A stretch of DNA of 24,314 nucleotides from a virus. A program made the translations under genes and the position numbers. Where the stretch lies: IMG/VR virus record IMGVR_UViG_3300035703_000404, positions 1 to 24,314 of that record. The stretch is one strand, 5' to 3'. Below, piece after piece: positions 9,679 to 24,314 of the stretch (the stretch's first letter is position 1; every line of letters starts with the position of its first letter). The notes under the pieces are model-generated. The model did no database searches. It was not told where the DNA came from and saw only the letters and a program-made list of their open reading frames with translations.

Positions 9679-10076
9679 ACTTCCTGCATTCCGCTTTGCG
9701 TGGTCGTGCGACACAGAAACCGCATGGTGACATTGTTTTCGTCGACGTTGATGGCTTCCAGAATATGGCGATAGACGAAAGATCCGTCGAAGTTCACTCT
9801 CCGGATCGCGTGGCTTCCTGTGATCCGCCGGGTGACTGCGTTCCATGAACATTCGACAACGGAATCGACCTGCTGGTGACTCTGTTGAGCGAAATTGACG
9901 GACCTGCTGCCTGTCGTATGGATTTTTGCATACGCTCGGCCGGTGACTGTCCAGTCGGACCAATCTCGGGCTTCAATTTCCTGGTTGTCGTTGAGTTCAT
10001 CGGGTGCCTTTAGGAAAACAACCAGCTTGTCATAGTCGGACGGACAAGGGATGTGGCATTCGCGTTTCTTTGCCAT
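9675..10076 (-). CDS. Head closure (head-tail joining) protein (133 aa)
   Basis: This small beta-rich protein has the layout of Phage_H_T_join proteins: an early strand YDKLVVFLKAP, then DWTVTGRAYAKIHTTGSRSV (an Ala-x-Ile strand followed by a loop), a central HAIRRVNFDGSFVYRH and a terminal strand NNVTMRFLCRTT. It starts 3 bp after the connector stop with GGGGTGA before the ATG, and its own stop overlaps the next start (ATGA). In related siphoviruses this protein plugs the connector after packaging. Confidence 0.78.
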   Translation of the reverse strand: MAKKRECHIPCPSDYDKLVVFLKAPDELNDNQEIEARDWSDWTVTGRAYAKIHTTGSRSVNFAQQSHQQVDSVVECSWNAVTRRITGSHAIRRVNFDGSFVYRHILEAINVDENNVTMRFLCRTTTQSGMQEV

Positions 10077-10079
10077 GCA

Positions 10080-10991: not shown

Positions 10992-11024
10992 GTGATAACC
11001 CGTGGAGGTCTGCGATATTGCCGA

Positions 11025-11354
11025 TTAACCAACGAGGATGGCGTAACCGGCGTCGATCAGCCGATCAGCCTCGTACGCTGGCATCTCGTATTCCTGATTC
11101 GGATTGCGAACGAATTCGTGGCCGTTCCTCGTCACTGGAATCCCATCATCCCGCAGCACCTGCTGACCAGCAGCATCAAGCACGGGAACCTGATGGTAAC
11201 CGGCCTGACTGGTGAGCATCTTGACCTTCACCACATCAGTCGGCTTGGTCGTGGGCACGGTTTTGGCCGCAGGCTTGCTGACTGCCGGCTTTGTCGCAGT
11301 CGCAGACTTAGTTGGCGTGGCGCTTTCGGCGGATTCTGGCGTAGTTTCTGGCAT
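11025..11354 (-). CDS. Hypothetical small protein with Thr/Lys/Ala/Pro-rich N-terminus (109 aa)
   Basis: Residues 1-42 are low complexity (Thr, Pro, Ala, Ser, Lys) and look disordered. The remainder (VKVKMLTSQAGYHQVPVLDA, EYEMPAYEADRLIDAGYAIL) looks like a small folded domain. The pattern 'EYEMPAYEADRLIDAGYA' resembles short proteins encoded just after capsid genes in many phages, where they are usually left unnamed. It follows the capsid terminator and has only a weak Shine-Dalgarno, which would give lower expression than capsid. Function is not assigned. Confidence 0.7.
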   Translation of the reverse strand: MPETTPESAESATPTKSATATKPAVSKPAAKTVPTTKPTDVVKVKMLTSQAGYHQVPVLDAAGQQVLRDDGIPVTRNGHEFVRNPNQEYEMPAYEADRLIDAGYAILVG

Positions 11355-11392
11355 CTGGATTCTTTCTCTAACGATCTGGAACGAAACAGGTC

Positions 11393-11422
11393 AAAAGAGG
11401 TGGCGGCAATCACCGCCACCTC
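11393..11422 (-). terminator. Rho-independent terminator after the major capsid gene
   Basis: On the minus strand GAGGTGGCGG and CCGCCACCTC form a perfect 10-bp stem with a six-base loop (11397-11422), followed by TTTT. It is 25 bp past the capsid stop. Partial termination here would reduce expression of the connector genes relative to capsid. Confidence 0.82.
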
Positions 11423-11447
11423 GCGTCATTCAGTCACTCACCGTTGA

Positions 11448-12878
11448 CTACGGATGAGTCAGCGACTTCACAGGGTTGTCGCCAGCGTTCAGCAGGTTGC
11501 CGTCCGCACGAACGAAAGCGATGAACGCCTCCTGGTCGCTTTCGGCGTATCGTTCAGCCAGTCGGCGGAATCGAACCTGACCGACCATTCGCAGCTTGTA
11601 AGAGGACAAGCGGCCGAACAGCATGGACTTCACGCCTGAAGCAGCGTTCGCCATATCATCGTTGATGATGTAGCGGTAGTTGTTCATCGTGTCCGGCGCT
11701 CCCGTGTTGGCGCCAGCCTGCCACAGATAGCGGTTCTGGCTATCCTTCAGCTTGCGGACCAGTTTCAACGTGTCATCGTTGAACATGTACGAGCAAGCCG
11801 CACGGTTTGCTCGGATCGCACGGTTCACGCTGTGCTCGAGGTCGATGATTTCATCGAACACGATTGCAGCAGCTCCGGCCGCAGTCTTGCCAGTCACAGC
11901 ACGGGTAACGATCCCCCACATCGTCGAGGCACCGTCTCCGGTGGTGCCTTTTTCGTTCAGGATGCGGCCCAGGCGTTCACCCAGCATTTGCGGGATGACG
12001 TTTTCCAGACCGACGGCATTGTCCTGCATCAGTTCGTACGGAACTTTGATCATGTCCGACGTGAACTTGTGGGCGTACCACAGAGTGTTCCCGAAGCTCG
12101 GATCGAGATCGGCAACGTCGCGGGCTTCGCCAATCTGACGGCCCTTGTTTGCGGTGTCATCCGCAGTCGGCCAGCGCATTTCCTCGCCGGTTTCCGTACG
12201 GATCACGTCAGCAGCTTCCATGATGCCGGAACTGGCAATCATGGCAATTTCGAGACGGTTGACGAAAGTCGTCCCGAACAGATAGCCGCCAGTGGAACCA
12301 ACGTTGCTTCCGAGCGAGTTCATGAATTCGTCCGTGTTACCGGAACGAACGGCATTCTGCAGCGGGATGAAGTCGCCCGTATCCAACAGGCCGCAGGAGA
12401 TTTCCCGAACGGCAGGGTTGAAGTTCAGGTGCTGGCAAGCCGCTTGCGCTGCAGCGTCAGACCGGCCAGAGAGCCACGCAGCAAACGCCAGAGCGCCAAC
12501 CTGAGTGGTAGTCATTCCCTTCAAGACGCCATCGGTGATTCGGCCGTCACGACCGGTGCGGAAATCGCCACCGCCGGAAATCAGGCGGTTCTTCTGGCTG
12601 GACTCAAACCGATTGCCGTGACCGGCCATCTGATTGATTTTCTCCAGACGACGAGCGGCGTTCTCGGCGGAAGTCGCTTCGGATTCACACGCCTTGATGT
12701 GGGCGTCGAGCTGTGAGTACACAGCGTCGTAGTCGGCTTCCATCTTGGAAAAGACGGTGTCGTGCTCAGCCGACCACGTTTTCTCGTGCTCGGTGTGGTA
12801 AGCCTTCATCTCGTCGTGGAGCTTCAACCGCTTGTCTTGCAGAGCGGCCAACTGATTTGGGTCGGTGATCTTGGTCAT
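11448..12878 (-). CDS. HK97-fold major capsid protein with N-terminal delta-type scaffold domain (476 aa)
   Basis: Residues 1-95 are a charged coiled-coil helix (LAALQDKRLKLHDEMKAYHT onward) like the delta scaffold domain removed by the prohead protease. The rest matches phage_capsid family features: GGYLFGTTFVNRLEIAMIAS, TGEEMRWPTADDTANKGRQI (P-domain to E-loop region), FGNTLWYAHKFTSDMIKVPY and a C-terminal GRLSSYKLRMVGQVRFRRLA. GAGGA lies upstream of the ATG as a Shine-Dalgarno. The 5' leader carries a strong hairpin (12924-12982) and an initiator-like tRNA, and a terminator follows. It assembles into the icosahedral shell. Confidence 0.93.
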   Translation of the reverse strand: MTKITDPNQLAALQDKRLKLHDEMKAYHTEHEKTWSAEHDTVFSKMEADYDAVYSQLDAHIKACESEATSAENAARRLEKINQMAGHGNRFESSQKNRLISGGGDFRTGRDGRITDGVLKGMTTTQVGALAFAAWLSGRSDAAAQAACQHLNFNPAVREISCGLLDTGDFIPLQNAVRSGNTDEFMNSLGSNVGSTGGYLFGTTFVNRLEIAMIASSGIMEAADVIRTETGEEMRWPTADDTANKGRQIGEARDVADLDPSFGNTLWYAHKFTSDMIKVPYELMQDNAVGLENVIPQMLGERLGRILNEKGTTGDGASTMWGIVTRAVTGKTAAGAAAIVFDEIIDLEHSVNRAIRANRAACSYMFNDDTLKLVRKLKDSQNRYLWQAGANTGAPDTMNNYRYIINDDMANAASGVKSMLFGRLSSYKLRMVGQVRFRRLAERYAESDQEAFIAFVRADGNLLNAGDNPVKSLTHP

Positions 12879-12923
12879 TGCGAGTCGGTCCTCGTGACTA
12901 TGTCACTGGACGGCAAAGCAACA

Positions 12924-12982
12924 AGGCGGACGCCGGCCAGCGACTTCCTGTGAAACAGAAAATCGTTGGTAGTCGTCCGCCT
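12924..12982 (-). other. Long structured hairpin in the capsid leader
   Basis: The outer stem AGGCGGACG/CGTCCGCCT (9 bp), middle stem CCAGCGA/TCGTTGG (7 bp) and inner stem CTGT/ACAG (4 bp, loop GAA) are stacked and separated by two symmetrical four-by-four internal loops, spanning 59 nt. It lies 45 bp upstream of the capsid ATG and downstream of the tRNA. There is no T-run, so it is not a simple terminator. A processing site (RNase III type) separating tRNA from capsid mRNA, or an mRNA-stabilising leader, is inferred. Confidence 0.65.
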
Positions 12983-13071
12983 CGTGAAGACTCGGCAGCA
13001 GATCACCTATGCCATGGCGGTGAAGACCGATCCGGCATGCTTTCGAATTGAGATCAGCCACACGGCTGAAG

Positions 13072-13146
13072 TGGCAGTGACGGGATTTGAACCCGCATCT
13101 TCCGGCTTATGAGGCCGACGAGGTCACCAGATGCCTCTCCACTGCG
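13072..13146 (-). tRNA. tRNA with CAT anticodon, initiator (fMet)-like
   Basis: The minus strand folds into a complete 75-nt cloverleaf: D stem GAGG/CCTC, anticodon stem TCGGC/GCCGG with loop CTCATAA (anticodon CAT), variable AAGAT, T arm GCGGG-TTCGAAT-CCCGT, and acceptor CGCAGTG/CACTGCC with discriminator A. The first acceptor pair is a C1xC72 mismatch, and the D stem has A11:T24, both hallmarks of bacterial initiator tRNA. The block CCTCGTCGG.CTCATAA closely resembles bacterial tRNA-fMet. It departs from the classical three G:C anticodon-stem pairs at the third (C31:G39). The CCA end is not encoded. It lies between two virion genes in the late operon. Confidence 0.88.
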
Positions 13147-13158
13147 TCGTTGTATCAT

Positions 13159-13194
13159 GCCTGCCGTGCTGGCATAGAGCCAAACACGGCAGGC
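13159..13194 (-). other. Strong hairpin just upstream of the tRNA
   Basis: On the minus strand GCCTGCCGTG pairs perfectly with CACGGCAGGC, with an inner TGGC/GCCA stem. It ends 12 nt before the tRNA 5' end and lies after the stop of the 146-aa gene. No T-run follows, so processing or mRNA 3'-end protection seems likelier than termination. Confidence 0.6.
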
Positions 13195-13217
13195 TTCCCT
13201 TTAGGTTTTGCGGTCGG

Positions 13218-13658
13218 TTACGCCGTGCCTTCGTTTGGCGCGACGAGAACCTCGTTTCCAATAGTTGACTGAGTGACTGGCACAACCTGCGGATTCCCAA
13301 GGATCGCGACGATGCCATCCAGCACAACGTTGGCAGTTGTGCGGGTTAGAATCAGCTTGAGATAGCGTTTGGTTGGCCGCATGACCTCAACGGCGATGAT
13401 CTTATCATCATCGGTATCAGTAGCGGCGAATGCTGACGCCTCCAAGTCACTGTACGCGTCAGTTGCACCATCGTCGCTTGACTGCTGCACCTTGATTGCT
13501 GGAACACCCGTCGAGGTGACAGTGCCGAGCATCGTCAGAAACAGGCAAGAGTTAAAGCCTTGCATGTCAATGCCAGCCGTTGGCGTAATTGTGGAGGTTC
13601 CAGCAGCCGCCCCTGCATTGTGACGCACAATCTTTGTGTTGTTCAGTAATCCGAGCAC
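13218..13658 (-). CDS. Probable virion protein, unknown family (146 aa)
   Basis: The GTG start at 13658 has GAGGG eight bases upstream. The sequence is beta-rich (MQGFNSCLFLTMLGTVTSTG, AIKVQQSSDDGATDAYSDLE, KRYLKLILTRTTANVVLDGI). This pattern recurs in small phage proteins encoded next to capsid genes that are usually unnamed. Position between prohead protease and capsid suggests a head decoration or accessory head protein, but this is inference. A degenerate copy of the operator (13718-13735) stands 60 bp upstream, and a strong hairpin and the tRNA follow it. Confidence 0.72.
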   Translation of the reverse strand: MLGLLNNTKIVRHNAGAAAGTSTITPTAGIDMQGFNSCLFLTMLGTVTSTGVPAIKVQQSSDDGATDAYSDLEASAFAATDTDDDKIIAVEVMRPTKRYLKLILTRTTANVVLDGIVAILGNPQVVPVTQSTIGNEVLVAPNEGTA

Positions 13659-13717
13659 AGCAAAACCCTCATCAATCAGAGTGAATCAAACACTTCGAAT
13701 GCCCGTTGGCGTCACAA

Positions 13718-13735
13718 TGTCGCATCAATGGTACA
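13718..13735. promoter_or_regulatory. Degenerate operator copy C
   Basis: TGTCGCA-TCAA-TGGTACA matches one half-site of the recurrent inverted repeat exactly and the other at five of seven positions. It lies in the 111-bp gap upstream of the 146-aa virion gene, where the other copies also precede genes. It is the weakest copy. Confidence 0.4.
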
Positions 13736-13769
13736 TTCGGCAGGAACTTGCGTCAAGAACAATAAGCCA

Positions 13770-14585
13770 TCAGCCGAACCGTGAAGCGAGTTGGCTCCGG
13801 ATTGCGTTCAACTTTTCAGCCCGCAACGCAGCAGCGTGACGGCTGCTCATGGACTGCAGTCTCGACTGAATGTCGTTCGCTGGCTTCTCACTGCCGCTCG
13901 CATTGGATTCGCCAGACTCTTCTTTTTTGCGAGTCTTCAGCTTAATCAATGCGTCCGCGAAACCGTATTCCACAGCCTGCTTGCCGCTGAAAACTGTTCC
14001 GTCGTGATTCTCGCCCTCAAACCACTTCACGATTTCGTCACGTGTTCGCCCGGTCCTGGCGGCGTACGTGTCGATAATCTGTCCGTCCAGAGTTTCCAGC
14101 CAGTTTGCGCTATCACGCAAGGCAAACCGGTTGCCCATGGTGTAAAGCCAGGCAGGGTGGATGCCGAGCGAACCATTTTCCGCGATGTTTATGACGTCTG
14201 CGGCCATCGGAATAATGGAAGCGGCACTGTAGCCGATGCCCGTGATATTCGCCGTGACCTTCTTCGGGTGCTGTGCGGCTGCATTGTAGATGGCAATGCC
14301 ATCGTAGGCCGATCCGCCGAAACTGTTGATGTCGAAGGCGAGTTCCTTGTCGGCGTGCTTTTTGATTTCGGCGACAACTGTGTTCGAATCCAGCCCAACC
14401 CATGAATCACCAATGGAATCATGCATCATGATTACGAGTGTGGTGACCTCATTTTCGACGACTTCCAACTTGCATTGCAATGAACTCTCAGTCACTCGTG
14501 CGAACGGCTGGCCATCGGAGTTGCGGAACAGTCGGGACTTATCGGCGGCTGCACTGAAAAACTGGCGAAAACGATCAGATCGCAT
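13770..14585 (-). CDS. ClpP-like (S14) head maturation protease (271 aa)
   Basis: Residues 80-130 carry the ClpP-fold signature: DINSFGGSAYDGIAIYNAA with the oxyanion-hole Gly-Gly (90-91), then ITGIGYSAASIIPMAADV with the likely catalytic Ser (S120 of YSAAS). A conserved His follows (H143 in SLGIHPAW), and an Asp at 167 or 172 completes the probable triad. After about residue 215 comes a charged tail ending in a helix (HAAALRAEKLNAIRSQLASR). It sits between portal and capsid and overlaps the portal 3' end by 11 bp. It is expected to cleave the capsid delta domain during prohead maturation. Confidence 0.92.
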   Translation of the reverse strand: MRSDRFRQFFSAAADKSRLFRNSDGQPFARVTESSLQCKLEVVENEVTTLVIMMHDSIGDSWVGLDSNTVVAEIKKHADKELAFDINSFGGSAYDGIAIYNAAAQHPKKVTANITGIGYSAASIIPMAADVINIAENGSLGIHPAWLYTMGNRFALRDSANWLETLDGQIIDTYAARTGRTRDEIVKWFEGENHDGTVFSGKQAVEYGFADALIKLKTRKKEESGESNASGSEKPANDIQSRLQSMSSRHAAALRAEKLNAIRSQLASRFG

Positions 14586-16302
14586 TGAATATCTCCTTAT
14601 GCCACAGGTCCGTGACAGTTTGCTGAAACTCTGCCAGAAACGCCTTCACGTTCCCTTCCAACTCCGCCGGCTTGTGTGGTGGCTCCAGAAAGACACTCAC
14701 GCCAGCAGTCAAAACACCTGTCAGCCATTGCCGACTGGCCAGCATCAACAAAGATGCCTTTTGTTCGTTCACTACGCAACTCAGTGACACGTCCAGTTCT
14801 TCATCGACAATCGACTGGTGATCAACAGCTTTGCTGTCACACCACGCCAGCAGATCGTTTGGCTTCCGAGCCTTGTTCTGGCACACGGTCGCCAATCGCT
14901 TGGCAGCACGCGAAACCGCCTGGTCGAGTAGTCGCTTGTGAGACTTCGACGGCGTGGCGGCTGACTGCGTGTCTGTGTCTTCAGGATCTTCCGTGTCATC
15001 AGTCGACCGGGAACGCGACGTTCCCGCCTGACTCGTTTCGGCCGGTCGGTCCGTCTGGCCTCGAGTGCTCGGGTTGTAATACTCGCTCGCCTTTTCGTCC
15101 GCGCGGGCAGGGAGATTGATTTTCTTCCGCCAGTCGTTGGCGTTGATGACCTCGTTCTGGCGCTGAATCGCGAGCACCTCGTTGAGCGTCTTGATGTCCG
15201 CTTCGACGAGCTTGGAAAAGTTGTGTTCGAACCGGTGAGACCGTGCGCGGCGGGTTCGCTCACTGAGAAGCTTAATGTTCGCTTCGCCCTGAATTCGGGA
15301 CGTGACGTGCAATAAGCTTCCCATGATATAGGCTTTAGCAGCCTGCTCAGCCGAGTTGTAGGACTCGGAGTTTCGCAAACCCAGCTTCCAGGGCGGCATG
15401 TTGAAGAAGTGACAGACGGCCCGGGCTTCGTCGTCGTTGAGCTCGTGCATCTGCGCAGCACGCGGATCCACCGTCGCGGAGTGCCATTGAGCACCTTCAC
15501 GCAACACCAGCGTCTTGAACCAGTTTGCCGGGCTTGACCGCTTAGCGACGCCTTTCTCCAGATTTTCCACGCTCTTTGGTGTGGTGCCGGGAGGAATACT
15601 AAGGATCCCGCCGTGATGCCCGCCACGCTCAAAGAACTTGGACAGATACAGCTTTCCGGCCAACGCCAGACCGAGCTCATTCCGCATCAGGTTGATACAG
15701 GAAAGAGCCTTGCCGCCACCAAGTGACAGGCCTTTCAGGTGAAAGACTTCCCAGTGATTCAAGATATGGACTTCGCCGTCCAGCATCAGTTCATAGACCA
15801 ATGCGCCGGTGTCTTTGTCGATCAGTGGCGTGACGGCGGTCGGGACCAGATTTGCCATCCACTGAATCGGACCGTTTGGAGCCCCGCCTTGTCGGCCAAT
15901 GTAGGCGTACCCGTTTCCGAACAACTGGTGGTGAAAAACGAGGTTTTGCCAGCCTTCATTGGCTGGAGTCAAGTCGTTCCATTGCAGAGAACAGACTCGC
16001 TCGCACGACTGGTTGTAGTCGATATCGTCAGCACCGGGTTCCACGTCGTTTTTGTGACAGTGCAGGGTGGCTGCGCCAACATCCGCTGACTTGATTTCCA
16101 GACACTGATAGACCGGACCAAAACGCAGGGCTTCTTCGGGACCGATCGACAGTCCGCTGTCCGCTCGCTGATGCCCTAGCGTCTCCCAGAAAGCCGGATC
16201 GTCAAGGCTGACTCGTGGATCTTCCAGACTTCCAGCCGAACGCGCATTACCACGCCGGGCTGGCAGCAGTCTGTTGAAAAACTCAGCGAGGTCTGGCAGC
16301 AC
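14575..16302 (-). CDS. Portal protein, HK97 family (575 aa)
   Basis: Residues 60-400 match phage_portal features: RFGPVYQCLEIKSADVGAAT, WQNLVFHHQLFGNGYAYIGR, a WEVFHLKGLSLGGG segment, LYLSKFFERGGHHGGILSIP and ARAVCHFFNMPPWKLGLRNS. The C-terminal portion (about 400-575) has a Ser/Thr/Asp-rich linker (TSRSRSTDDTEDPEDTDTQS) and then a helical domain of unknown role, making it longer than a minimal portal. The start is a GTG at 16302, overlapping the upstream small membrane protein gene by 20 bp. The portal forms the dodecameric DNA gate. Confidence 0.92.
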   Translation of the reverse strand: MLPDLAEFFNRLLPARRGNARSAGSLEDPRVSLDDPAFWETLGHQRADSGLSIGPEEALRFGPVYQCLEIKSADVGAATLHCHKNDVEPGADDIDYNQSCERVCSLQWNDLTPANEGWQNLVFHHQLFGNGYAYIGRQGGAPNGPIQWMANLVPTAVTPLIDKDTGALVYELMLDGEVHILNHWEVFHLKGLSLGGGKALSCINLMRNELGLALAGKLYLSKFFERGGHHGGILSIPPGTTPKSVENLEKGVAKRSSPANWFKTLVLREGAQWHSATVDPRAAQMHELNDDEARAVCHFFNMPPWKLGLRNSESYNSAEQAAKAYIMGSLLHVTSRIQGEANIKLLSERTRRARSHRFEHNFSKLVEADIKTLNEVLAIQRQNEVINANDWRKKINLPARADEKASEYYNPSTRGQTDRPAETSQAGTSRSRSTDDTEDPEDTDTQSAATPSKSHKRLLDQAVSRAAKRLATVCQNKARKPNDLLAWCDSKAVDHQSIVDEELDVSLSCVVNEQKASLLMLASRQWLTGVLTAGVSVFLEPPHKPAELEGNVKAFLAEFQQTVTDLWHKEIFNAI

Positions 16303-16486
16303 GGTCGGTTGTCATCCTGTGACTGAGGACTCCGTAACTAAACAGGATGCCGCCAGAAATGGCGAAACCGGCGGCACTATGTAGCAAGAATGCAGCATAG
16401 ACTACCATGGCAGAACCTGCAAAACAACAGAGGTTTGCAACTGTCAAGCCCGACCATCGTTTTTTCACCTGCGGAGTCGTTTCCAT
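16283..16486 (-). CDS. Small protein with two membrane segments (67 aa)
   Basis: The ORF starts with ATG preceded by AAAAGGG four bases upstream, like the start-associated sequences of the rightward genes. Two hydrophobic segments are visible, at about 15-35 (LTVANLCCFAGSAMVVYAAF) and 38-54 (AAGFAISGGILFSYGVL), with a basic tail (HRMTTDRAARPR). Its 3' end overlaps the portal start by 20 bp. A membrane protein between terminase and portal genes is unusual. Holin-like or superinfection-exclusion roles are possible, but nothing in the sequence decides. Confidence 0.6.
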   Translation of the reverse strand: METTPQVKKRWSGLTVANLCCFAGSAMVVYAAFLLHSAAGFAISGGILFSYGVLSHRMTTDRAARPR

Positions 16487-16544
16487 TGTACCCTTTTCCA
16501 GTGCTTTGAGACGTCAGATTTGCCAAATTATGACTGGCGGACCT

Positions 16545-16865
16545 TTAGGCCGGAACCTTCGGACGTTGCGGCTTTCGGTCTGCTGGCGCTGCGTTCGACC
16601 TCCGCTCCCATCCGCGTTTTTGCAAATGTTCGGCGTGAGCGAGAGTGATCGGCATATACTCGATACAGTTTCCCGCCGGGTCTCCGCCTTGCAAAACCAT
16701 GACTTTGTTCACGACCATTTCACCGACGCACAACCCTGGGAACGGTTCGACCGGAAGCACAATTTCCGGACCGTGCAAGACTCCTGATCCCGGAATATGG
16801 ACCTTTACGAACTGATGCCAACGAATCGAAGACGACATTTTACTAGCCCTTCTATGACGTTTCAT
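16545..16865 (-). CDS. Hypothetical protein (106 aa)
   Basis: The ATG at 16865 overlaps the upstream stop as ATGA, which decides the start over a longer open frame to 16883. The sequence begins with a basic stretch (MKRHRRASK), followed by a compact segment (RWHQFVKVHIPGSGVLHGPE, GEMVVNKVMVLQGGDPAGNC) and a basic C-terminus. No family was recognised. It sits among head genes but away from the usual set. Confidence 0.62.
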   Translation of the reverse strand: MKRHRRASKMSSSIRWHQFVKVHIPGSGVLHGPEIVLPVEPFPGLCVGEMVVNKVMVLQGGDPAGNCIEYMPITLAHAEHLQKRGWERRSNAAPADRKPQRPKVPA

Positions 16866-17359
16866 CGACCTACCACATAACAAACGTAATCTGCCACATC
16901 CAAACCGTGGCCTCGCATGACGGCCACGAACTTCCCATGTTGACGCCCGTCTTGCAGATCCCGAACCTGCTGAGACGTCAGTCGCAAAAACAAATCGTGG
17001 TGAAGCGGTGGCGACTCGCTGCCACCGATCGCCGAAACCAATGCAGACCCCACAGCGTTTGGCGTGTTTAGCCGCAAAGTAATCTTGCAGAGATGAGTTC
17101 CGACCAAAGACTCATCAACCACGAATTGCGGCGAAGCTGATTCCTTTGACTGAAAGAACTCTGTCACTTGCGCACGTGAAACCATTTGCACGGTTCGCGT
17201 TCCAGCACGACCACGATACTTCGGTTCGTCGAAACTCCACGCCTGCACGCGTCCAGCGTCGATAGCGGCTCTCAATCGTCGATCCGAAACACCAGCTATC
17301 TTCAAAGCTTCGGACCTTTCAATCAGATCGCTCGGCGGCTTCTCATCGTGTGGCGTCAT
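16862..17359 (-). CDS. HTH (MerR/excisionase-like) DNA-binding protein (165 aa)
   Basis: The ATG at 17359 overlaps the large terminase stop as ATGA. Open frame upstream of it is a shadow. Residues 10-70 (LIERSEALKIAGVSDRRLRA, AIDAGRVQAWSFDEPKYRGR, then TVQMVSRAQVTEFF) have the shape of a winged-helix HTH of the MerR/excisionase type: helix, turn, recognition helix, wing and return strand. The C-terminal part (90-165) includes LFLRLTSQQVRDLQDGRQHG and is unassigned. A DNA-binding protein coupled to terminase could contact DNA during packaging or act as a late regulator. It is one candidate to bind the operator copies, but there is no direct evidence. Confidence 0.68.
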   Translation of the reverse strand: MTPHDEKPPSDLIERSEALKIAGVSDRRLRAAIDAGRVQAWSFDEPKYRGRAGTRTVQMVSRAQVTEFFQSKESASPQFVVDESLVGTHLCKITLRLNTPNAVGSALVSAIGGSESPPLHHDLFLRLTSQQVRDLQDGRQHGKFVAVMRGHGLDVADYVCYVVGR

Positions 17360-19257
17360 ACGTACTCCACCGGATTGTCGTCGTAGAAGTTCAGCGTCTG
17401 AATTTCCCACTCTTTGTTGTCCAACGCTCCCCACCGAGACATGACCGAGGCCTGGCAACCGTCGACCGTACGAAATGACTTACGGTCCTCCTTCTGAATC
17501 AGGCGATGTCCTCGAGCATCCTCCTTGACAGTCGCATGCCCGAACTGCCACGTGAGGACCGGATTGTCCTCATGCCTGATGGCGCCGCGTTTGAGATCGT
17601 TTTCAAAGTCTGCGACTGGTCCAGTCTGAGTCAGCATGCCCTGCGAAATTGCCTGTTCGCCGATCGCCAGTCCTTCGAACATCAACGTGCCGTCCGGACC
17701 GAACTCGCCTTCGAGCAAATCCTGTATCAGCGATTCGGCATACGTGGCGTCGTAGACGATCCCGACCACCTGCCGCCGATGACAGAAGTCTCTGAGGTCT
17801 CGCTTGATGACGCGAAGATCGGTTACGTTCCCCGGGTTGACCCGAATCAATCCCTGTTCGACCCACTGCAGCACAACCGGGTGATGGATCGCGAGTTCCT
17901 TGATTCTCGCCTCGTTGCACCAGAACATCGGATCAACAATGTCGATTGACTCGTTCTTGTTTGGTGACGTTGGAACAGCGGCGGCGAGGTCGAACTTCCT
18001 GGCGAGGTCCAAACCCAAAACCCACTGCCGCTCTGACAATTCCTTCTGATCGAACTTATGACCACCGCATCCGGCCCAAACTCCGGGAGCCAGCCAGCCC
18101 TGTTTGGCGTGCTGCCAAACGTTTAGGCGGTACATCATGTAGTCGGCGAAGTCTGCCGGCGAAGTCACAGACTTGTGAAACGCTGGCAACAGTTCTTCCA
18201 TTCCAACGGTATGACCGAGCGACGGATTAGCCATCCGAATGTAGGCCTCCGGATCCTTCTTCGCTTCCTCCGCCGACAAACGCTGTGGCGCATTGTAGGA
18301 CTGATGGAAGAAGTCATCGAGTGCCCGCTTGCCTTCGTTGACTTCTTCGCCGACGTCCCATTCGCCTTTGCCGAATCCTTCAGGGTTGTTGCCCGCGGTC
18401 GAATACGCAAGGTTTAAGGGCTGAGGACGTGAAGCTCCGGCAAACTCCAGAATCTTCATGAACGGTCGCGTCACAACGTGAGTCTCATCGACGATCACGT
18501 TCCCGTTCAGACCTTCCTTCGACTTCTGATTGTTAATGTTGCCAGACGACAACGGTTCGAAATGGCTTGTAGTCGGATGGAACTTCACCTGATGCGTGTT
18601 CATGTTCGGCTTGCACGCTGCGGCAAGCTCCGGAGACCGAACCAGCATCTGATACGCATGCTCCCAGACTCGAATCGCCTGAGCACCATCCAGCGCCGCA
18701 ATGAACGTCTTGGCGCCGGGTTCGCCATCACCACAAGTCAGGTAGAGCGTGTTAAAAGCCAGTGATGGCGTTTTGCCACTCTTCTTTGGGATCCAGACTC
18801 TGGCCGTGCGAAATCGTCGAACCTGCTGCAACCCGACTCTCTGCCATCGTTCAGCCGCAACTCGCTGCCAGCCATAGATTCGAGCGTGGCATTCGAACTG
18901 CCAATGCATGAACTGGCCACTGTGGAACAGATCGTTGTGCCACTTCAGGCGAGACAAATAGAAGTCCACAACCTCCGGAACTGGCTGATCGTCGTCACCA
19001 TAGAAGACGGGAAACAGATCGGGAATCTCTTCGTAGTTCGGCTGATCCACGTGCGACAACATGATGACCGGCTTGTCGGCGAAACCTTCCCCTTCATAGA
19101 GTCGGCAGTATCGCTCAACCCACCAAATCATGTAGGCAGCACGAATCGGATCAAACCAGCAGCCGTTGTTGACCGCGAGTTCGTCAGCTTTATTCCGCAT
19201 CCACGGTTCTGTGGCGGCTTTCTGGGCTTTGCTGAGTTTCTTCCACGACTTCGCCAC
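17356..19257 (-). CDS. terL: Terminase large subunit (633 aa)
   Basis: The ATPase domain carries Walker A IPKKSGKT at about 156-163 and Walker B NVIVDETH at about 253-260, with the motif NLAYSTAGNN further on. The C-terminal nuclease domain has a first acidic strand in WVLGLDLARKFDLAAAV and a later VGIVYDATYAESLIQDLLEG, fitting Terminase_1/phage_terminase proteins of HK97-like phages. The start is GTG at 19257 overlapping the small terminase stop by one base (TAGTG), so the two are coupled. It cuts and pumps DNA into proheads through the portal. Confidence 0.94.
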   Translation of the reverse strand: MAKSWKKLSKAQKAATEPWMRNKADELAVNNGCWFDPIRAAYMIWWVERYCRLYEGEGFADKPVIMLSHVDQPNYEEIPDLFPVFYGDDDQPVPEVVDFYLSRLKWHNDLFHSGQFMHWQFECHARIYGWQRVAAERWQRVGLQQVRRFRTARVWIPKKSGKTPSLAFNTLYLTCGDGEPGAKTFIAALDGAQAIRVWEHAYQMLVRSPELAAACKPNMNTHQVKFHPTTSHFEPLSSGNINNQKSKEGLNGNVIVDETHVVTRPFMKILEFAGASRPQPLNLAYSTAGNNPEGFGKGEWDVGEEVNEGKRALDDFFHQSYNAPQRLSAEEAKKDPEAYIRMANPSLGHTVGMEELLPAFHKSVTSPADFADYMMYRLNVWQHAKQGWLAPGVWAGCGGHKFDQKELSERQWVLGLDLARKFDLAAAVPTSPNKNESIDIVDPMFWCNEARIKELAIHHPVVLQWVEQGLIRVNPGNVTDLRVIKRDLRDFCHRRQVVGIVYDATYAESLIQDLLEGEFGPDGTLMFEGLAIGEQAISQGMLTQTGPVADFENDLKRGAIRHEDNPVLTWQFGHATVKEDARGHRLIQKEDRKSFRTVDGCQASVMSRWGALDNKEWEIQTLNFYDDNPVEYV

Positions 19258-19724
19258 TAGATCTTCCTGTTCATCCCTTGAACCTTGCTCGACTTGGTGT
19301 TGCCAAGTGCTGGGGGCACTTTCGCTCGGCCCATCGGAGAAAAGCCAAGATTCATCTGAGCCTGCTGAATGAACGCCCTTGCCTTTTCCATCGTGACGAA
19401 GCCAGGGTGACGAGCCATCCCGGACATCGTCGGAAAGTAGTCGCCATTCTTCGCAATGTCGGCTCGTGCATCACTTTCGTCCTGGTGTGCATCGCAGAGT
19501 GCCTCAAGTGCTGGCAAATCCCGGGCAGTCAGCACCCCGACCGCCAACAACTCCGCCGCGTACTGCTTCCACCGGCGAGTGAACTCCGCTTTCTTCTTCC
19601 CGGGAACTCGCGGCAATTCGGTCAACACCGTCTCCGCGCCGTAAGCCTCCTTCGGTCCGTGAACTCCTTGCCGATGTGTCCCATCTGCGATCCGCAGACT
19701 GGGCGCTTTTGGATGCCGTGGCAT
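19257..19724 (-). CDS. terS: Terminase small subunit, P27-like (155 aa)
   Basis: The ATG at 19724 has a perfect AGGAGG eight bases upstream, so the longer open frame to 19802 (which would run through both operator copies) is rejected. The protein begins MPRHPKAPSLRIADGTHRQG, then has a helical core (RRWKQYAAELLAVGVLTARD, LPALEALCDAHQDESDARAD) typical of P27-family small terminases. It ends with a basic C-terminus (SSKVQGMNRKI). It recognises the packaging site and recruits the large subunit. It is the first gene of the leftward late operon, and two operator copies sit in its leader. Confidence 0.88.
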   Translation of the reverse strand: MPRHPKAPSLRIADGTHRQGVHGPKEAYGAETVLTELPRVPGKKKAEFTRRWKQYAAELLAVGVLTARDLPALEALCDAHQDESDARADIAKNGDYFPTMSGMARHPGFVTMEKARAFIQQAQMNLGFSPMGRAKVPPALGNTKSSKVQGMNRKI

Positions 19725-19741
19725 CTGTCGTGCCTCCTCAA

Positions 19742-19759
19742 TGTTGCATTCTTGCGACA
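19742..19759. promoter_or_regulatory. Operator copy D
   Basis: TGTTGCA-TTCT-TGCGACA is an 18-bp inverted repeat (one mismatch between arms) located 18 bp upstream of the small terminase ATG, directly before its Shine-Dalgarno. Its centre is 38 bp from that of copy E. Confidence 0.65.
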
Positions 19760-19779
19760 ATGTGAAATTCCCGCAAGAG

Positions 19780-19797
19780 TGTTGCACTAATGCGACA
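19780..19797. promoter_or_regulatory. Operator copy E
   Basis: TGTTGCA-CTAA-TGCGACA is extended outward to 10-bp arms (GAG...CTC at 19777-19800), the second of two copies in the leader of the late operon. The pair suggests cooperative binding by a dimer. Confidence 0.65.
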
Positions 19798-19802
19798 CTC
19801 AA

Positions 19803-19891
19803 CTTTCTAGATTAAAATACCCGCACAAAAATCTGCGGACGAGCAAGGCGTGGTCTCGCAGTCGCAGAGCCGCACAATCGGACCTACCCCC
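19803..19891. other. Non-coding stretch between late-operon leader and repeat array
   Basis: It is A/T-rich at 19803-19835 (including TTTCTAGATTAAAATA), followed by a small stem CCGCA/TGCGG and then GC-rich sequence. A leftward promoter for the terminase operon probably lies here or in the operator pair, but no clear -35/-10 pair could be identified. No ORF in this stretch looks coding. Confidence 0.35.
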
Positions 19892-20143
19892 CGTCACGTG
19901 GTAGCGTGGGACGTGGACGCCGTCACGTGGTGGCGTGCTCGGCGACGTAGAGCCGCCGTGCGTCGCGTGGTGGCGTGCTCGGCGACGTAGAGCCGCCGTG
20001 CGTCGCGTCGTGGCGTGCTCGGCGACGTAGAGCCGCCGTGCGTCGCGTGGTGGCGTGCTCGGCGACGTAGAGCCGCCGTGCGTCGCGTGGTGGCGTGCTC
20101 GGCGACGTAGAGCCGCCGTGCGTCGCGTCGTGGCGTGCTCGGC
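19892..20143. repeat. Tandem array of 40-bp direct repeats
   Basis: Five complete 40-bp units (19921, 19961, 20001, 20041, 20081) are followed by a 23-bp partial unit at 20121-20143 and preceded by a degenerate partial copy at 19892-19920. Units are nearly identical. The base at unit position 9 follows the pattern G,G,C,G,G,C, so the array is really a duplicated 120-bp block. Each unit contains GCGACG and CGTCGC as a short inverted repeat. There are no unique spacers. The array sits in the divergent control region and could be a set of iterons (replication origin), a partition-type site or a packaging-initiation site. Open frames across it are by-products of its composition. Confidence 0.9.
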
Positions 20144-20180
20144 CATTGCGCAGGTGTGCCACTGGCCGAGGCACTGGCGA

Positions 20181-20230
20181 GTGTAGCATTTTGCAACAGT
20201 GTAGCATTTTGCTGCAGCAAAATGCTACAC
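20181..20230. promoter_or_regulatory. Perfect 32-bp palindrome plus upstream direct half copy
   Basis: The 14-mer GTGTAGCATTTTGC occurs at 20181-20194 and 20199-20212, and its exact reverse complement occurs at 20217-20230 around a TGCA centre, giving a perfect 32-bp palindrome at 20199-20230. The half-site GTGTAGCA resembles GTGTTGCA/GTGTCGCA of the operator copies. TGTAGCA-TTT-TGCAACA at 20182-20198 is almost an operator with a three-base spacer. Its centre is about 125 bp before the predicted start point of the sigma-54-type promoter, a typical distance for an enhancer-binding activator. Confidence 0.8.
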
Positions 20231-20312
20231 CACCGGCTCCGGACGCGTCCACCGAGCCACGCCACCACGCAAAATTCCAGCGTTTTCGCCTGCGCCACGT
20301 TTTTGTGACGAG

Positions 20313-20328
20313 TGGCACGGGGGTTGCA
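20313..20328 (+). promoter_or_regulatory. Sigma-54 (RpoN)-type -24/-12 promoter
   Basis: TGGCACG-N4-TTGCA matches the sigma-54 consensus at every defined position, with exactly ten bases between the invariant GG (20314-20315) and GC (20326-20327). Transcription would start near 20339 and read the rightward gene block, the first ATG being 62 bp further. Its -12 element lies inside operator copy F, so a bound regulator would block polymerase. The match is seen in sequence, while use by RpoN is inferred. Confidence 0.7.
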
Positions 20329-20339
20329 TCTATGCAACA
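20322..20339. promoter_or_regulatory. Operator copy F overlapping the -12 promoter element
   Basis: GGTTGCA-TCTA-TGCAACA fits the TGTYGCA-N4-TGCRACA pattern except for the first base. It covers the -12 element and predicted start point of the rightward promoter. Directly downstream, GTGCCA-ACGC-TGGCAC (20342-20357) is another inverted repeat. Confidence 0.55.
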
Positions 20340-20362
20340 CAGTGCCAACGCTGGCACGGTCA

Positions 20363-20400
20363 CCGGTGAGACTGATCACCGGCCATCAAAGGGAAGAACA
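20363..20400 (+). promoter_or_regulatory. Start-associated cassette of the first rightward gene
   Basis: An inverted repeat CCGGTGA/TCACCGG (20363-20382) is followed by GGCCATCAAAGGG and the ATG at 20401. The arrangement (GC palindrome, CCGGCCAT, AAAGGG, start codon) is the same as at the next genes on this strand. AAAGGG serves as a Shine-Dalgarno-like element. Confidence 0.6.
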
Positions 20401-20598
20401 ATGAAGCTTACAACACTCGCCAAGCGGATCGACCGAGAACTGAACAAGGAAGTCACCGACGCGCAGACCGTCAAAGTCGTCGAAGCATTCTGGAAGCTGG
20501 ATATTGAACTCGATTGTGCTGACTGGTTCTTTGACAGAATCGCACTGCTTGAGTCCTGCTTGGAAGCACAGCACGGACTCATCTGTGACCGTGCCTAG
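20401..20598 (+). CDS. Small hypothetical protein, first gene of the rightward block (65 aa)
   Basis: The protein reads MKLTTLAKRIDRELNKEVTD, then AQTVKVVEAFWKLDIELDCA, and looks all-helical and acidic with no recognised family. The ATG lies 8 bases after AAAGGG. It is the first gene after the sigma-54-type promoter and operator F and ends in its own terminator at 20608-20640. Longer frames starting at 20095 would run through the control region and are rejected. A regulatory role is possible from position alone. Confidence 0.7.
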   Translation: MKLTTLAKRIDRELNKEVTDAQTVKVVEAFWKLDIELDCADWFFDRIALLESCLEAQHGLICDRA

Positions 20599-20607
20599 GT
20601 CACCGGA

Positions 20608-20640
20608 GCCGGGGGGAGTGGTTCCCCCCGGCGGGTTTTT
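20608..20640 (+). terminator. Terminator-like hairpin after the 65-aa gene
   Basis: GCCGGGGGG pairs with CCCCCCGGC across a seven-base loop, followed by GGG and five T. The same hairpin type recurs after each rightward gene. Confidence 0.78.
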
Positions 20641-20645
20641 CGGTT

Positions 20646-20665
20646 CCGGAGCCGATCGGCTCCGG
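20646..20665. repeat. Perfect 20-bp intergenic palindrome, copy 1
   Basis: CCGGAGCCGATCGGCTCCGG lies between the terminator hairpin and the start-associated AAGGG of the DUF932 gene. The identical sequence occurs at 22129-22148, and a 21-bp variant occurs at 23711-23731. Confidence 0.85.
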
Positions 20666-20689
20666 CCATTATGTTGAAGGGTTTTTGTT

Positions 20690-22066
20690 ATGTTCCTTGC
20701 ACACCTGAAGTCAAATGCTGTTTCTGAAGTCGTCGCAACCGTGACCACCGAGCCGGTCACCACTCCGGCCATCGTCGTTCGGCCATCGGTCCCCGTTGTT
20801 GTCGTCCCCCCTCCGCCGGTTGTTTCGGCTCCGGTCACTCCGGAGCCGGTCACCGTTGAATCAGTCGAGACGTTGCAACCGTTGCGTGGCACTGGCCGAC
20901 GTGGTGACTTCGTTCATGCTAATCAGACAATGGGAACCGCGCAGGGTTTTTCTCACGTCTCTGAACGCTGGTTGACACGTGGTAAAGTGATGACGTTCGA
21001 CCAGGCCATCGACCACGTTCACGCCACGCGTGGCAACACGTTAGACCTCGTGCGCGACTTTTCGGAATTGCAACCGGTTGCCGATTCCGGCGGGTTCGGA
21101 CTGATCGACAAACGCACGGGGAGACGTCTCACAATGTCGGCGGAGGGACTCGACCAGTTCGCCGAGAAAACCCGTATTGGCCAAACGTTGCCGCGCCGAC
21201 TGGTGACCGGTGATTCCGCCGACGTCGAGACAATGGCACTCATTGCAGCGAACGGAATCCGCAAACTGAACGGGAAAACATGCCTGATTCGTACGCGTGA
21301 ATCGGACAATTCTATCCGTGCGTTTTTGTCGGAAGAATACGCCGTGATTGATCACGCGTGGTATCTTGAGACGTTGTCGCGCATCATCCCCGGCGGGCTT
21401 GTCAGTCACTTCCGCAGTGATGACGGTTGTGATTCGATTTTCTTTAACGTCCTGATTCCCGATTCACTCCGCGCGGAATCAGACTCGGATTATGGCGGAA
21501 TGTTGGCTTGTGGCAACGGGGAGACGGGACACAATCGGCTCCGGTCACTTCCGAGTATCTTCCGAGCCATTTGTCAGAACGGTTGTATTTGGGACCGTGT
21601 TGACGGAATCGGCTATATCATGCAGACTCACCGCGGTGATATCGACTTGCCGGAATTGGCTCGGGTAATCGGCGACAACCTAAACCGGCAGATTCCGTTG
21701 TTGAACAGTGGCATTGATAGCATGCTCGCAACGCGTGGCATTGTCACCAGTGCCGAACCGTTGCCGGTGATCGGCGCAGTTCTGCAGACGTTGAACATCG
21801 CCGGAATCTCGAAAGACAACGCAACGGCCATCCTAGACGGGTTCAACGAACAGCGAACGGAATCGGCTCTGGTGACCGCGTTCGACGTCATTCAGGGAAT
21901 TACAAAAGCAGCGCAATCATTCGACGCGTACAGTCAAGAAGTCGCCGAACGTGCCGCGGGTTCGGCTATGTTGTGGACGGCCGAACGCTGGCAAGCTGCT
22001 TTCAGTTTGGCCGGTTCAATCGACACAAAAGCGCTCAAACGTATCTTCTCAAAGTCAGTCGTTTAA
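20690..22066 (+). CDS. DUF932 family protein (458 aa)
   Basis: Residues 15-57 are a Pro/Val/Thr/Glu-rich linker (TTEPVTTPAIVV, VPPPPVVSAPVTPEPVTV). From about 100 to 450 the sequence follows the DUF932/phage-plasmid-like pattern: an early ADVETMALIAANGIRKLNGK, then RTRESDNSIRAFLSEEYAVI, an FFNVLIPDS strand, GNGETGHNRLRSLPSIFRAI and a C-terminal helical half ending SIDTKALKRIFSKSVV. DUF932 proteins are common on phages and plasmids and often neighbour replication or recombination genes. Their biochemical role is not established. The ATG follows AAGGG. Leu TTG and short GC-rich repeats are frequent here, unlike in the late genes. Confidence 0.85.
   Translation: MFLAHLKSNAVSEVVATVTTEPVTTPAIVVRPSVPVVVVPPPPVVSAPVTPEPVTVESVETLQPLRGTGRRGDFVHANQTMGTAQGFSHVSERWLTRGKVMTFDQAIDHVHATRGNTLDLVRDFSELQPVADSGGFGLIDKRTGRRLTMSAEGLDQFAEKTRIGQTLPRRLVTGDSADVETMALIAANGIRKLNGKTCLIRTRESDNSIRAFLSEEYAVIDHAWYLETLSRIIPGGLVSHFRSDDGCDSIFFNVLIPDSLRAESDSDYGGMLACGNGETGHNRLRSLPSIFRAICQNGCIWDRVDGIGYIMQTHRGDIDLPELARVIGDNLNRQIPLLNSGIDSMLATRGIVTSAEPLPVIGAVLQTLNIAGISKDNATAILDGFNEQRTESALVTAFDVIQGITKAAQSFDAYSQEVAERAAGSAMLWTAERWQAAFSLAGSIDTKALKRIFSKSVV
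20826..20848. repeat. Intragenic copy of the GC palindrome in the DUF932 linker
   Basis: CGGCTCCGG and CCGGAGCCG flank TCACT, so the two arms of the intergenic palindrome occur here in reversed order inside the coding region of the Pro-rich linker. This suggests that linker and intergenic cassette share ancestry. Confidence 0.65.
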
Positions 22067-22091
22067 CGTCCCCGGTTCTATGTTCTTCCCT

Positions 22092-22122
22092 CCGCCGCGG
22101 GAACGTCCCCCGGCGGGTTTTT
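22092..22122 (+). terminator. Terminator-like hairpin after the DUF932 gene
   Basis: CCGCCGCGGG pairs with CCCCCGGCGG (one C-C mismatch) around AACGT, followed by a five-T run. It is the second copy of the cassette terminator. Confidence 0.75.
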
Positions 22123-22128
22123 CAGTCT

Positions 22129-22148
22129 CCGGAGCCGATCGGCTCCGG
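22129..22148. repeat. Perfect 20-bp intergenic palindrome, copy 2
   Basis: CCGGAGCCGATCGGCTCCGG is identical to copy 1 and is followed by GGCCAT-like sequence and AAAGGGTTTTCGTC before the ATG at 22172. Confidence 0.85.
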
Positions 22149-22171
22149 CCATCGTTCAAAGGGTTTTCGTC

Positions 22172-23653
22172 ATGCTGGCATTTGTCAACGTCCACAATTT
22201 GCATCGAACCGCGCGCGAAGTCGTTTCTACGTTTCGCCGAACTACTTCCGAGCCGGTTCCGTTCGGCGGTTCAATCACACTCTCAACAGGAACCCAATTG
22301 ACGGGAACCCGGAACGCGTTCGGCGCTATCGTCTGGACGATCACAGAACGTCCAGGCGACGTTTTGACGGTTGCGGAATGGCACGAACTCTGCGACGTTC
22401 AACAGGGACGCAACACGGTTCCGGCTCCGGAGCCGGAACCCGTCAAAGTCGAACCCCTCCGCGCTTCCATCAACATCAACCGCAAACGGTTTTTGAACGA
22501 CGTTAAACAGGCGGTTTCGCACAACAAACGTGCCGCGCGTCAGTTGGTTGTCATGCGGTTCGGCGAACGCGTTCGGCTCGAATCATTCTCCGGCCATTCT
22601 CTTCTGACGTTGTGCGTTCAGACTGAGACAACTGACGGGGAATTGTCGATCGTCATTCCCGCCGAACGTTTGGCCACAATCCTGGCCAAACTCACTGCCG
22701 TTGATATCACAGTTTCCGCCGAGCTCAATCCCGCCGGTTCAACGGAACTGACAATCGAAACTGCAGACGGGAAGTTCTCACTACCCGCCGAACCACTCAC
22801 AGATGACTTTGCGTCACTCACCGAGCCATTCCCCGCAACGTTTGCCAGTGGCGTTAGCGCTGGTGACTTGAGACGCGCGATTCTGGCCACTGAATACGCA
22901 ATCGATGAACAATCAGGCCGGTTTGCTCTTGGCGGATTGTGTTTCGATATCACTCCGGAGTCTATCAATGTGGCCGGAACTGATTCCAGACGTTTGGCCG
23001 TTGCAACGGTTCCCGCCGCGATTGTCGGGACGTTGCCGGATGGCTTCGATTCTATGGAGATGAACACGCGTAAAATTCTCGTTCCAATGCGGATTGTGAA
23101 CGAGCTCAAAACGTGCCTTGCCAGAATGGTTGATTCTGAGTGGGTTTACGTGGCCGGTTCGACGTTGTCTCAGTTGGTGATTGAATCGGAAAACGCGTTT
23201 TCAATCCGCGGGCTGCAATTAGAAGGACGATTCCCCAGTTATCGGGACGTCATCCCACGCAATCCGCCGGCCATCATCACCATGAACCGCAAACGCCTGA
23301 TTCAATCATTGGAGACTGCCGGCCTGGTTTGTGATGAAGAATCGCGCGGGGTAGATATGGAATTCCGAGCCGGTTCCGAGCTCTTGACGGTCCGCGGGAA
23401 ATCACCATCTTGCGGGAAGTCAGAAACAACGTGTCCGATTGTTTCCGGCTCCGGAGATATCGGGGTTCTGACAAAAGACGGCGCGCCGTTCGTCATTACG
23501 TTCGATCCAAAGTATCTCATTGAGTCACTCCGAACTATGTCCGATGAATCGGCAAGTTTGGCGTTTCACGATTCCGATACGGCCATGGTTTTGACCAGCG
23601 CGGAGGAATCAACCGTCTCTCATATCATCATGCCACTGTCAAACGAACGTTAA
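22172..23653 (+). CDS. dnaN: DNA polymerase III beta sliding clamp-like protein with extra N-terminal domain (493 aa)
   Basis: Residues 97-493 follow the DnaN pattern of three clamp domains. Conserved blocks include VAGTDSRRLAVATVPA at about 268-283, EGRFPSYRDVIPRN at 351-364 (the GRFPxYxxVIP motif), then KRLIQSLETAGLV, and a C-terminal SHIIMPLSNER like the usual YxxMPxR end. Normal DnaN is about 370 residues. Here a 95-residue N-terminal extension (FGGSITLSTGTQLTGTRNAF, WTITERPGDVLTVAEWHELC) precedes a Pro-Glu linker (VPAPEPEPVKVEP). The extension was not recognised. The clamp tethers polymerase to DNA. A phage copy implies some independence from host replication. Its own terminator cassettes lie on both sides. 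Confidence 0.88.
   Translation: MLAFVNVHNLHRTAREVVSTFRRTTSEPVPFGGSITLSTGTQLTGTRNAFGAIVWTITERPGDVLTVAEWHELCDVQQGRNTVPAPEPEPVKVEPLRASININRKRFLNDVKQAVSHNKRAARQLVVMRFGERVRLESFSGHSLLTLCVQTETTDGELSIVIPAERLATILAKLTAVDITVSAELNPAGSTELTIETADGKFSLPAEPLTDDFASLTEPFPATFASGVSAGDLRRAILATEYAIDEQSGRFALGGLCFDITPESINVAGTDSRRLAVATVPAAIVGTLPDGFDSMEMNTRKILVPMRIVNELKTCLARMVDSEWVYVAGSTLSQLVIESENAFSIRGLQLEGRFPSYRDVIPRNPPAIITMNRKRLIQSLETAGLVCDEESRGVDMEFRAGSELLTVRGKSPSCGKSETTCPIVSGSGDIGVLTKDGAPFVITFDPKYLIESLRTMSDESASLAFHDSDTAMVLTSAEESTVSHIIMPLSNER
22417..22440. repeat. Perfect 24-bp palindrome inside dnaN coding region
   Basis: GGTTCCGGCTCC is followed immediately by its exact reverse complement GGAGCCGGAACC. It encodes the Pro-Ala-Pro-Glu-Pro-Glu-Pro linker that joins the extra N-terminal domain to the clamp. 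The core is the CCGGAGCCG element of the intergenic palindromes. Confidence 0.8.
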
Positions 23654-23672
23654 CGTCGCAAGTCACCACCGA

Positions 23673-23701
23673 GCCGGGGGGCGTCCCCCCGGCGGGTTTT
23701 T
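23673..23701 (+). terminator. Terminator-like hairpin after dnaN
   Basis: GCCGGGGGG pairs with CCCCCCGGC around CGT, then GGG and five T. It is the third cassette copy, with the same stem as the first. Confidence 0.78.
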
Positions 23702-23710
23702 CCGTTGTCT

Positions 23711-23731
23711 CCGGAGCCGAACCGGCTCCGG
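23711..23731. repeat. 21-bp variant of the intergenic palindrome
   Basis: CCGGAGCCG and CGGCTCCGG flank AAC. It precedes the GTG start of the 119-aa gene with AAAGGGG in between. Confidence 0.8.
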
Positions 23732-23752
23732 CCATTGTAAAGGGGTTCAATT

Positions 23753-24112
23753 GTGGGACTGTCTATTGTGCTCGAAAACGGCCGTTTGAGAATTCGCGAC
23801 GCTATGCCCTGGACTGATGAACCAACTGAGATTGTGCATTTTTGGCCTACGCGGTTCGACGTCCACGACTTGATGAACCACGCAACCGGAATTCAGGACG
23901 ATCCTGCAGAGATACGCGTTGAGAGAATTCCGAACGGGTTCACGTTGCGGTTCCCGCGGCACAATTTTTGGTGTGATTGTATCGGCAACCGTTCGGCCGT
24001 TCGTGTGGAGACGGTTCCCGTTGAACGTCCGAAAGTTCGCAAGGGAATTGAGCTCAAGTGGCGTTACGGGAAATGGCAGAAACTGCTGAAAACGGGATGG
24101 CAGGACGTTTGA
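23753..24112 (+). CDS. Hypothetical protein (119 aa)
   Basis: The GTG start follows AAAGGGG by 8 bases in the same cassette layout as its neighbours. The protein begins MGLSIVLENGRLRIRDAMPW, has a Trp- and Arg-rich basic C-terminus (VRKGIELKWRYGKWQKLLKT) and a central HNFWCDCIGN with two Cys. No family was recognised. Small size and basic tail allow nucleic-acid binding, but this is only a possibility. It lies in the block with the clamp and DUF932 genes. Confidence 0.72.
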   Translation: MGLSIVLENGRLRIRDAMPWTDEPTEIVHFWPTRFDVHDLMNHATGIQDDPAEIRVERIPNGFTLRFPRHNFWCDCIGNRSAVRVETVPVERPKVRKGIELKWRYGKWQKLLKTGWQDV

Positions 24113-24136
24113 CGTTCGCCAGTGTTTCACCACCGA

Positions 24137-24164
24137 GCCGGGGGACGTCCCCCGGCGGGTTTTT
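24137..24164 (+). terminator. Terminator-like hairpin after the 119-aa gene
   Basis: GCCGGGGG pairs with CCCCCGGC around ACGT (itself a palindrome), then GGG and five T. This cassette lacks the second palindrome but keeps the AAAGGG before the next ATG. Confidence 0.78.
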
Positions 24165-24202
24165 CCGTTGCTTGTCAGTCACTCAATTAAAGGGTTCCGT
24201 TC

Positions 24203-24314
24203 ATGTTTCTTCCGCATATTCAAACGGCCGAACCGGCTCCGGTGATTGTGTCACCGGCCATCGTTTCGCCGATTCCGATTATCATCAGTCGAACGAAGTC
24301 ACCGGCAACCGATC
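24203..24314 (+). CDS. N-terminus of a further rightward gene, cut by window edge
   Basis: The frame is open for 37 codons from an ATG eight bases after AAAGGG. It starts MFLPHIQTAEPAPVIVSPAI and continues with a Pro/Ile-rich stretch. This resembles the start of the DUF932 protein (MFLAHLKSNA, then a Pro/Val-rich linker), so the two N-termini may share origin. The DNA includes CCGAACCGGCTCCGG, also found in the intergenic cassette before 23753. The product cannot be named from this much. Confidence 0.6.
   Translation, partial: MFLPHIQTAEPAPVIVSPAIVSPIPIIISRTKSPATD

Follow-up and report, generated by a model that had tools for sequence, protein, structure and literature searches.

We identified a match to sigma-54-type (-24/-12) promoters in a viral DNA of 24,314 nucleotides, the whole of which was analysed and is called the window here. 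The match, TGGCACGGGGGTTGCA, occupies positions 20313-20328 on the plus strand and reads TGGCACG-GGGG-TTGCA, with the exact GG-N10-GC spacing that an initial annotation of this DNA had described. Its -12 half is embedded in an 18-bp dyad, GGTTGCATCTATGCAACA (20322-20339), which is well supported as an operator of a repeated family and would bind a phage-wide regulator. Judging from the DNA sequence, we tentatively propose that 20313-20339 is a working sigma-54 promoter for a rightward transcript, overlapped by this phage operator, and put the likelihood of this reading slightly short of even. Sigma-54 is the best single promoter reading of the site, by virtue of the match and the lack of an alternative, and it rests on one unconserved site.

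The site lies in front of the rightward genes of the window. The leftward block holds the terminase (terS/terL), portal, protease and capsid genes, with terS (Terminase_4) at 19257-19727 on the minus strand, where its ATG start was set by comparison with a relative. About 670 bases separate this start from the first rightward ORF, and 20313-20328 falls within that gap. The first ORF (20401-20598, plus strand) encodes 65 amino acids and has no family match. Downstream of it, also on the plus strand, are the gene for a phrog_1362-like protein of 458 aa and unknown function (20690-22066) and the gene for a DNA polymerase III beta-clamp-like processivity factor (22172-23653). A 119-aa ORF after the beta-clamp-like gene completes the block. 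The rightward block seems to have a word bias of its own. GAGCCGG, counted on both strands, occurs 12 times in its 3.9 kb (20401-24314) and is absent from the 19.7 kb of leftward DNA (1-19727), and it occurs 18 times in 5.5 kb of L034, the contig that carries the nearest relative of this block.

The sigma-54 match was recovered both as a pattern and with a core matrix of 12 positions, which was built from 29 Salmonella sites given in PMC3844500. It is the sole 12/12 core match within the 24,314-nt window. Its core score of 19.6 was at least as high as that of every one of these 29 Salmonella sites, each scored with itself left out of the matrix, and the runner-up in the window scored 13.9. Shuffling the whole window gave as high a core score in 3 of 500 trials, and shuffling only 20144-20400 (plus strand) did so in 6 of 20000. 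When the window was shuffled with its dinucleotides preserved, the exact pattern TGGCACG-N4-TTGCW appeared in 5 of 300 trials. Among other loci, exact TGGCACN5TTGCW was found at 2 sites in 628 kb (six repeat loci dropped), and the composite TGGCAC-N5-TTGCA-N3-ATGCAACA was absent from every other viral contig scanned.

The description of the site as full-consensus stands for the core but not for the site as a whole. With a matrix of 18 positions that includes the spacer, the match was weaker and scored 12.9, under all 29 of the Salmonella sites (lowest 14.3). Their score range comes from a single organism, and we use it as a measure of degree, not as a threshold that a promoter has to pass. A spacer-inclusive score of at least 12.9 was reached in 160 of 300 shuffled windows and at 47 sites in ~621 kb of other loci, a count from which six loci that repeat others or the window, as well as loci with unread bases, had been dropped. 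The low score and the frequent matches in shuffled DNA are due to the GGGG spacer and the last C. Since the reference set represents one enteric species, the spacer penalty may not apply to another host. The Salmonella promoters, as given in PMC3844500, share the GG-N10-GC core (TGGCACG / TTGCA) with the window site, which differs from them in its G-rich spacer, in a -12 that lies within a repeated operator and in the phage gene downstream.

The operator half of the proposal draws on a family of dyads. The form TGTYGCA-N4-TGCRACA, with at most one mismatch, has five copies in the window where 0.04 would be expected, and none of 100 shuffles yielded as many. Every copy sits in a gap preceding a gene. 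One (2649-2666) precedes the leftward gene that ends at 1683, one (8035-8052) the leftward gene at 7497-7988, and two precede terS, the proximal at 19742-19759 and the distal at 19780-19797, 20 bp away from it. The fifth is the dyad at 20322-20339 (plus strand), listed as copy F in the initial annotation. The excess of dyads, together with their position in gaps before genes, makes the operator half of the claim well supported. The placement of the -12 element inside an operator was also confirmed, in that TTGCA (20324-20328) lies within a member of this repeated family.

Both dyads before terS are kept, with the same 20-bp gap, in the related contigs L005 and L006/L019 (TerL 75% identical). 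No dyads were found in 11 kb of L007, which is related by its capsid, or in the 5.5-kb locus of L034. Transcription of the four window dyads that precede leftward genes would give an RNA stem with a C-A mismatch in three cases, and a DNA-binding protein is therefore likelier than an RNA hairpin, which we disfavoured on this ground. We also rejected a Zur-like reading, because the half-sites of the Desulfovibrio motif ATGCAAC-N3-GTTGCAT, as given in PMC545781, are turned the opposite way.

We compared the promoter elements that the dyads cover. In L005 and L019 the proximal terS dyad overlies the -10 hexamer of TTGCCA-N17-AATAAT, which makes a good sigma-70 promoter. The window dyad centres, read leftward, are AATAAT (2649 and 8035), AAGAAT (19742, on the minus strand) and ATTAGT (19780), and among these a -35 with at least 3/6 matches at a distance of 17 was present only before 19742, where it is poor. 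Read rightward, the centre of the dyad at 20322 is ATCTAT, which is no -10, and the -24/-12 element fits there instead. The best sigma-70 reading in register with this dyad is GTGACG-N17-ATCTAT, with 6/12 matches. The dyad at 20322 thus lacks the sigma-70 -10 seen at terS, which favours sigma-54. From the GG-N10-GC geometry the start of transcription would lie at 20339 on the plus strand, in agreement with the earlier estimate, and the dyad would then extend from -17 to the start, much as the proximal terS dyad would be placed on its own promoter.

The strongest alternative accepts the operator and takes the -24/-12 element for a chance match, helped by the TTGCA of the dyad and by the TGGCAC/GTGCCA words repeated nearby; in that case some other promoter over the dyad, such as a weak sigma-70 one, would transcribe the rightward genes, as at terS. 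Words of the TGGCAC/GTGCCA type indeed occur three times inside 39 nt at the site, and as many were seen in 10 of 2000 shuffles. Because the dyad already explains TTGCA and TGGCAC is locally repeated, the -24 may belong to this local repeat. The poor spacer-inclusive score of 12.9 points in the same direction, as do the good sigma-70 promoter that underlies the terS dyad in L005 and a sigma-70-like promoter in L034. On the other hand, the gap that holds 20313-20339 contains no sigma-70 match of at least 9/12, and when the dyad was retained and the upstream DNA alone was shuffled, an equal core score was obtained in 4 of 20000 shuffles. We consider a chance match a serious possibility, somewhat less likely than the sigma-54 reading.

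The promoter in L034 bears on conservation as well. This 48-kb contig holds the block most closely related to the rightward one, with 51% identity in the 458-aa protein and with small ORFs ahead of the gene for its homologue. The L034 block is preceded by the weak sigma-70-like promoter TTGACG-N15-TATACC, and TGGCAYN5TTGCD is absent from the whole 48-kb contig. The sigma-54 site is not kept in L034, and the L005 and L006 contigs end short of the rightward promoter. The window TerL found no match in the L034 contig, which marks the two phages as mosaics whose regulation may differ.

More distant relatives of the 458-aa gene contained five 12/12 sigma-54-like matches against 0.6 expected, counted in 57 of 59 loci after L035 and L041 had been dropped as repeats of other loci. 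Phages with such distant relatives (L057, L062, L076, L077, L078, L081 and L084) carry recurring elements of the TTTGGCAC-N5-TTGC type, mostly on the strand opposite the 458-aa-type gene. The elements read in detail, those of L076, L077 and L084, immediately precede strong sigma-70-like promoters and, with exceptions in L077 and L084, are opposite to the operon strand. We rejected these elements as support, since most are on the wrong strand and upstream of sigma-70-like promoters. A tblastn search with the 458-aa protein against plasmids and phages returned no matches, and alignment scans of genome contigs with TerL and capsid found no relative that would name a host. The sigma-54 activator domain (Sigma54_activat, PF00158) was found in none of nine records, which include the 24-kb window, nor in the L034 contig, all of them fragments, and the same search detected it in 14 of 14 control genomes. 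A host activator would do as well as a phage-encoded one.

Two palindromes upstream of the match are candidate binding sites for such an activator. A perfect 32-bp palindrome (20199-20230), a candidate enhancer, has its centre at -124.5 from the supposed start. Next to it, the 17-bp sequence TGTAGCATTTTGCAACA (20182-20198), whose half-sites are related to those of the 32-bp palindrome, is centred at -149. Many sigma-54 enhancers are located 70-150 bp upstream, according to PMC3844500, a range that includes the centre of the 32-bp palindrome. Downstream, the supposed transcript would open with the hairpin GTGCCA-ACGC-TGGCAC (20342-20357, plus strand), which starts 3 nt into it and contains two of the three TGGCAC words found at the site. 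A second leader hairpin, CCGGTGA-N6-TCACCGG (20363-20382, plus strand), comes ahead of the first ORF and its ribosome-binding site. The leader fold has a z score of -2.4.

The claim that the promoter drives the rightward block is supported only as to gap and direction, which are proper. An intrinsic terminator of 11 pairs (20608-20632, plus strand) directly follows the first ORF, and the promoter may therefore serve the 65-aa ORF only. A G+C-rich, terminator-like hairpin with GGGTTTTT follows each of the four rightward ORFs (20608-20632, 22092-22117, 23673-23693 and 24137-24156), and a second hairpin, CCGGAGCC..GGCTCCGG, precedes the next start in three of the four rightward gaps. Given the terminator at 20608-20632 and the hairpins before a T run in the later gaps, the clamp gene would be reached only through read-through, antitermination or other promoters. 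Similar hairpins stand behind two genes of L034. These repeated hairpins of the rightward block possibly reflect antitermination or gene-by-gene control.

The gap also contains repeats of another kind. A G+C-rich tandem array of 40-bp units (19921-20143; 5.6 copies, 97%) lies upstream of terS, and this raises the question of whether it is an origin or a packaging site. By eye, L005 has a different tandem repeat in the same place, where that contig ends. The stretch CGGACGAGCAAGGCGTGGTCTCG (19836-19858), also upstream of terS, is shared by eye between the window and L005 amid differing DNA, and on the side of the relatives it lies at the start of L005/L006. In a scan of viral contigs, dyad pairs were found in 17 loci, of which two are the known relatives. 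In 3 of the 15 others (L018, L032 and L022) the pair sits just before a small gene preceding terL, and the small pre-terL genes of L018 and L022 gave no terS family match. In L017, L020 and L033 the pair is inside an HTH- or replication-type ORF, the type of the L033 ORF being assigned by reading alone, as it has no Pfam match. The L017 locus has five iteron-like TGTTGCA-N4-TGCAACA dyads (7037-7158) in a weak-HTH ORF that adjoins a DnaB helicase gene. In another reading, the whole gap at 19740-20340 would serve as an origin of replication or for packaging. Its dyads and palindromes would be bound by a terminase or a replication initiator, the 40-bp array would form part of the region, and the resemblance to a promoter would be accidental. 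This reading would agree with the 40-bp array, with the tandem repeat of L005 and with dyad pairs in replication-type ORFs (in L017 by the DnaB gene) or just upstream of pre-terL genes, but it is quite improbable in our view, as two of the five window dyads are far off in gaps of the leftward block, where a regulator fits better.

Promoters that diverge or lie close together and are overlapped by repeated dyads are familiar from OR/PR of the lambda type. The overlap in the window is alike, with the difference that one copy covers a sigma-54-like promoter. The use of RpoN by a phage had been called uncommon, and it is rare, yet it has a precedent: development of the Pseudomonas phage YuA is reported to be strictly sigma-54 dependent, a statement in PMC5053324 that was the sole precedent we found in a literature search for phages relying on sigma-54, itself made in partial texts. 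YuA (AM749441) has annotated -24/-12 promoters, the class proposed for the window, and they are noted as having high measured activity. Its three annotated promoters sit in structural genes and have no operator annotated over the -12, unlike the window site, which precedes a replication-side block. They also fit the consensus poorly, with a best core score of 3.4 against 19.6 in the window, as scored over the first 50000 of the 58663 bases of YuA. With scores of at most 3.4, the annotated YuA regions neither support nor refute the matrix, and we set YuA aside as a yardstick for it. The Gifsy-1 prophage and RtcR-RpoN in Salmonella likewise couple prophage state with RpoN activity; in that system a host operon is activated by a signal that requires the prophage, and the abstract claims no sigma-54-type phage promoter (PMC9879122).

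Taken together, the arrangement suggests how a sigma-54 promoter under this operator could work. Host RpoN polymerase would be parked at 20313-20328 as a closed complex, which an AAA+ activator, probably that of the host, might open from the palindromes near -124 and -149. A phage protein bound to 20322-20339 would exclude the polymerase at the -12. The transcript from about 20339 would fold into both leader hairpins and encode the 65-aa product, and the replication genes would be reached only if the terminators were read through. A wider scheme, which we hold to be rather unlikely, is that entry into the replication block is gated by a host-signal sigma-54 promoter, with the 32-bp palindrome as its enhancer, and that the -12 is contested between the phage regulator and RpoN polymerase in its closed complex. 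With the same operator over a sigma-70 -10 at terS, one repressor could in this scheme act on two sigma classes, with early and packaging genes answering different host signals.

Transcription of phages by RpoN polymerase has rarely been reported. If the sigma-54 reading is true, the replication-side genes of this phage would wait for an AAA+ activator, and hence for a condition of the host, while a phage operator occupies the identical bases.
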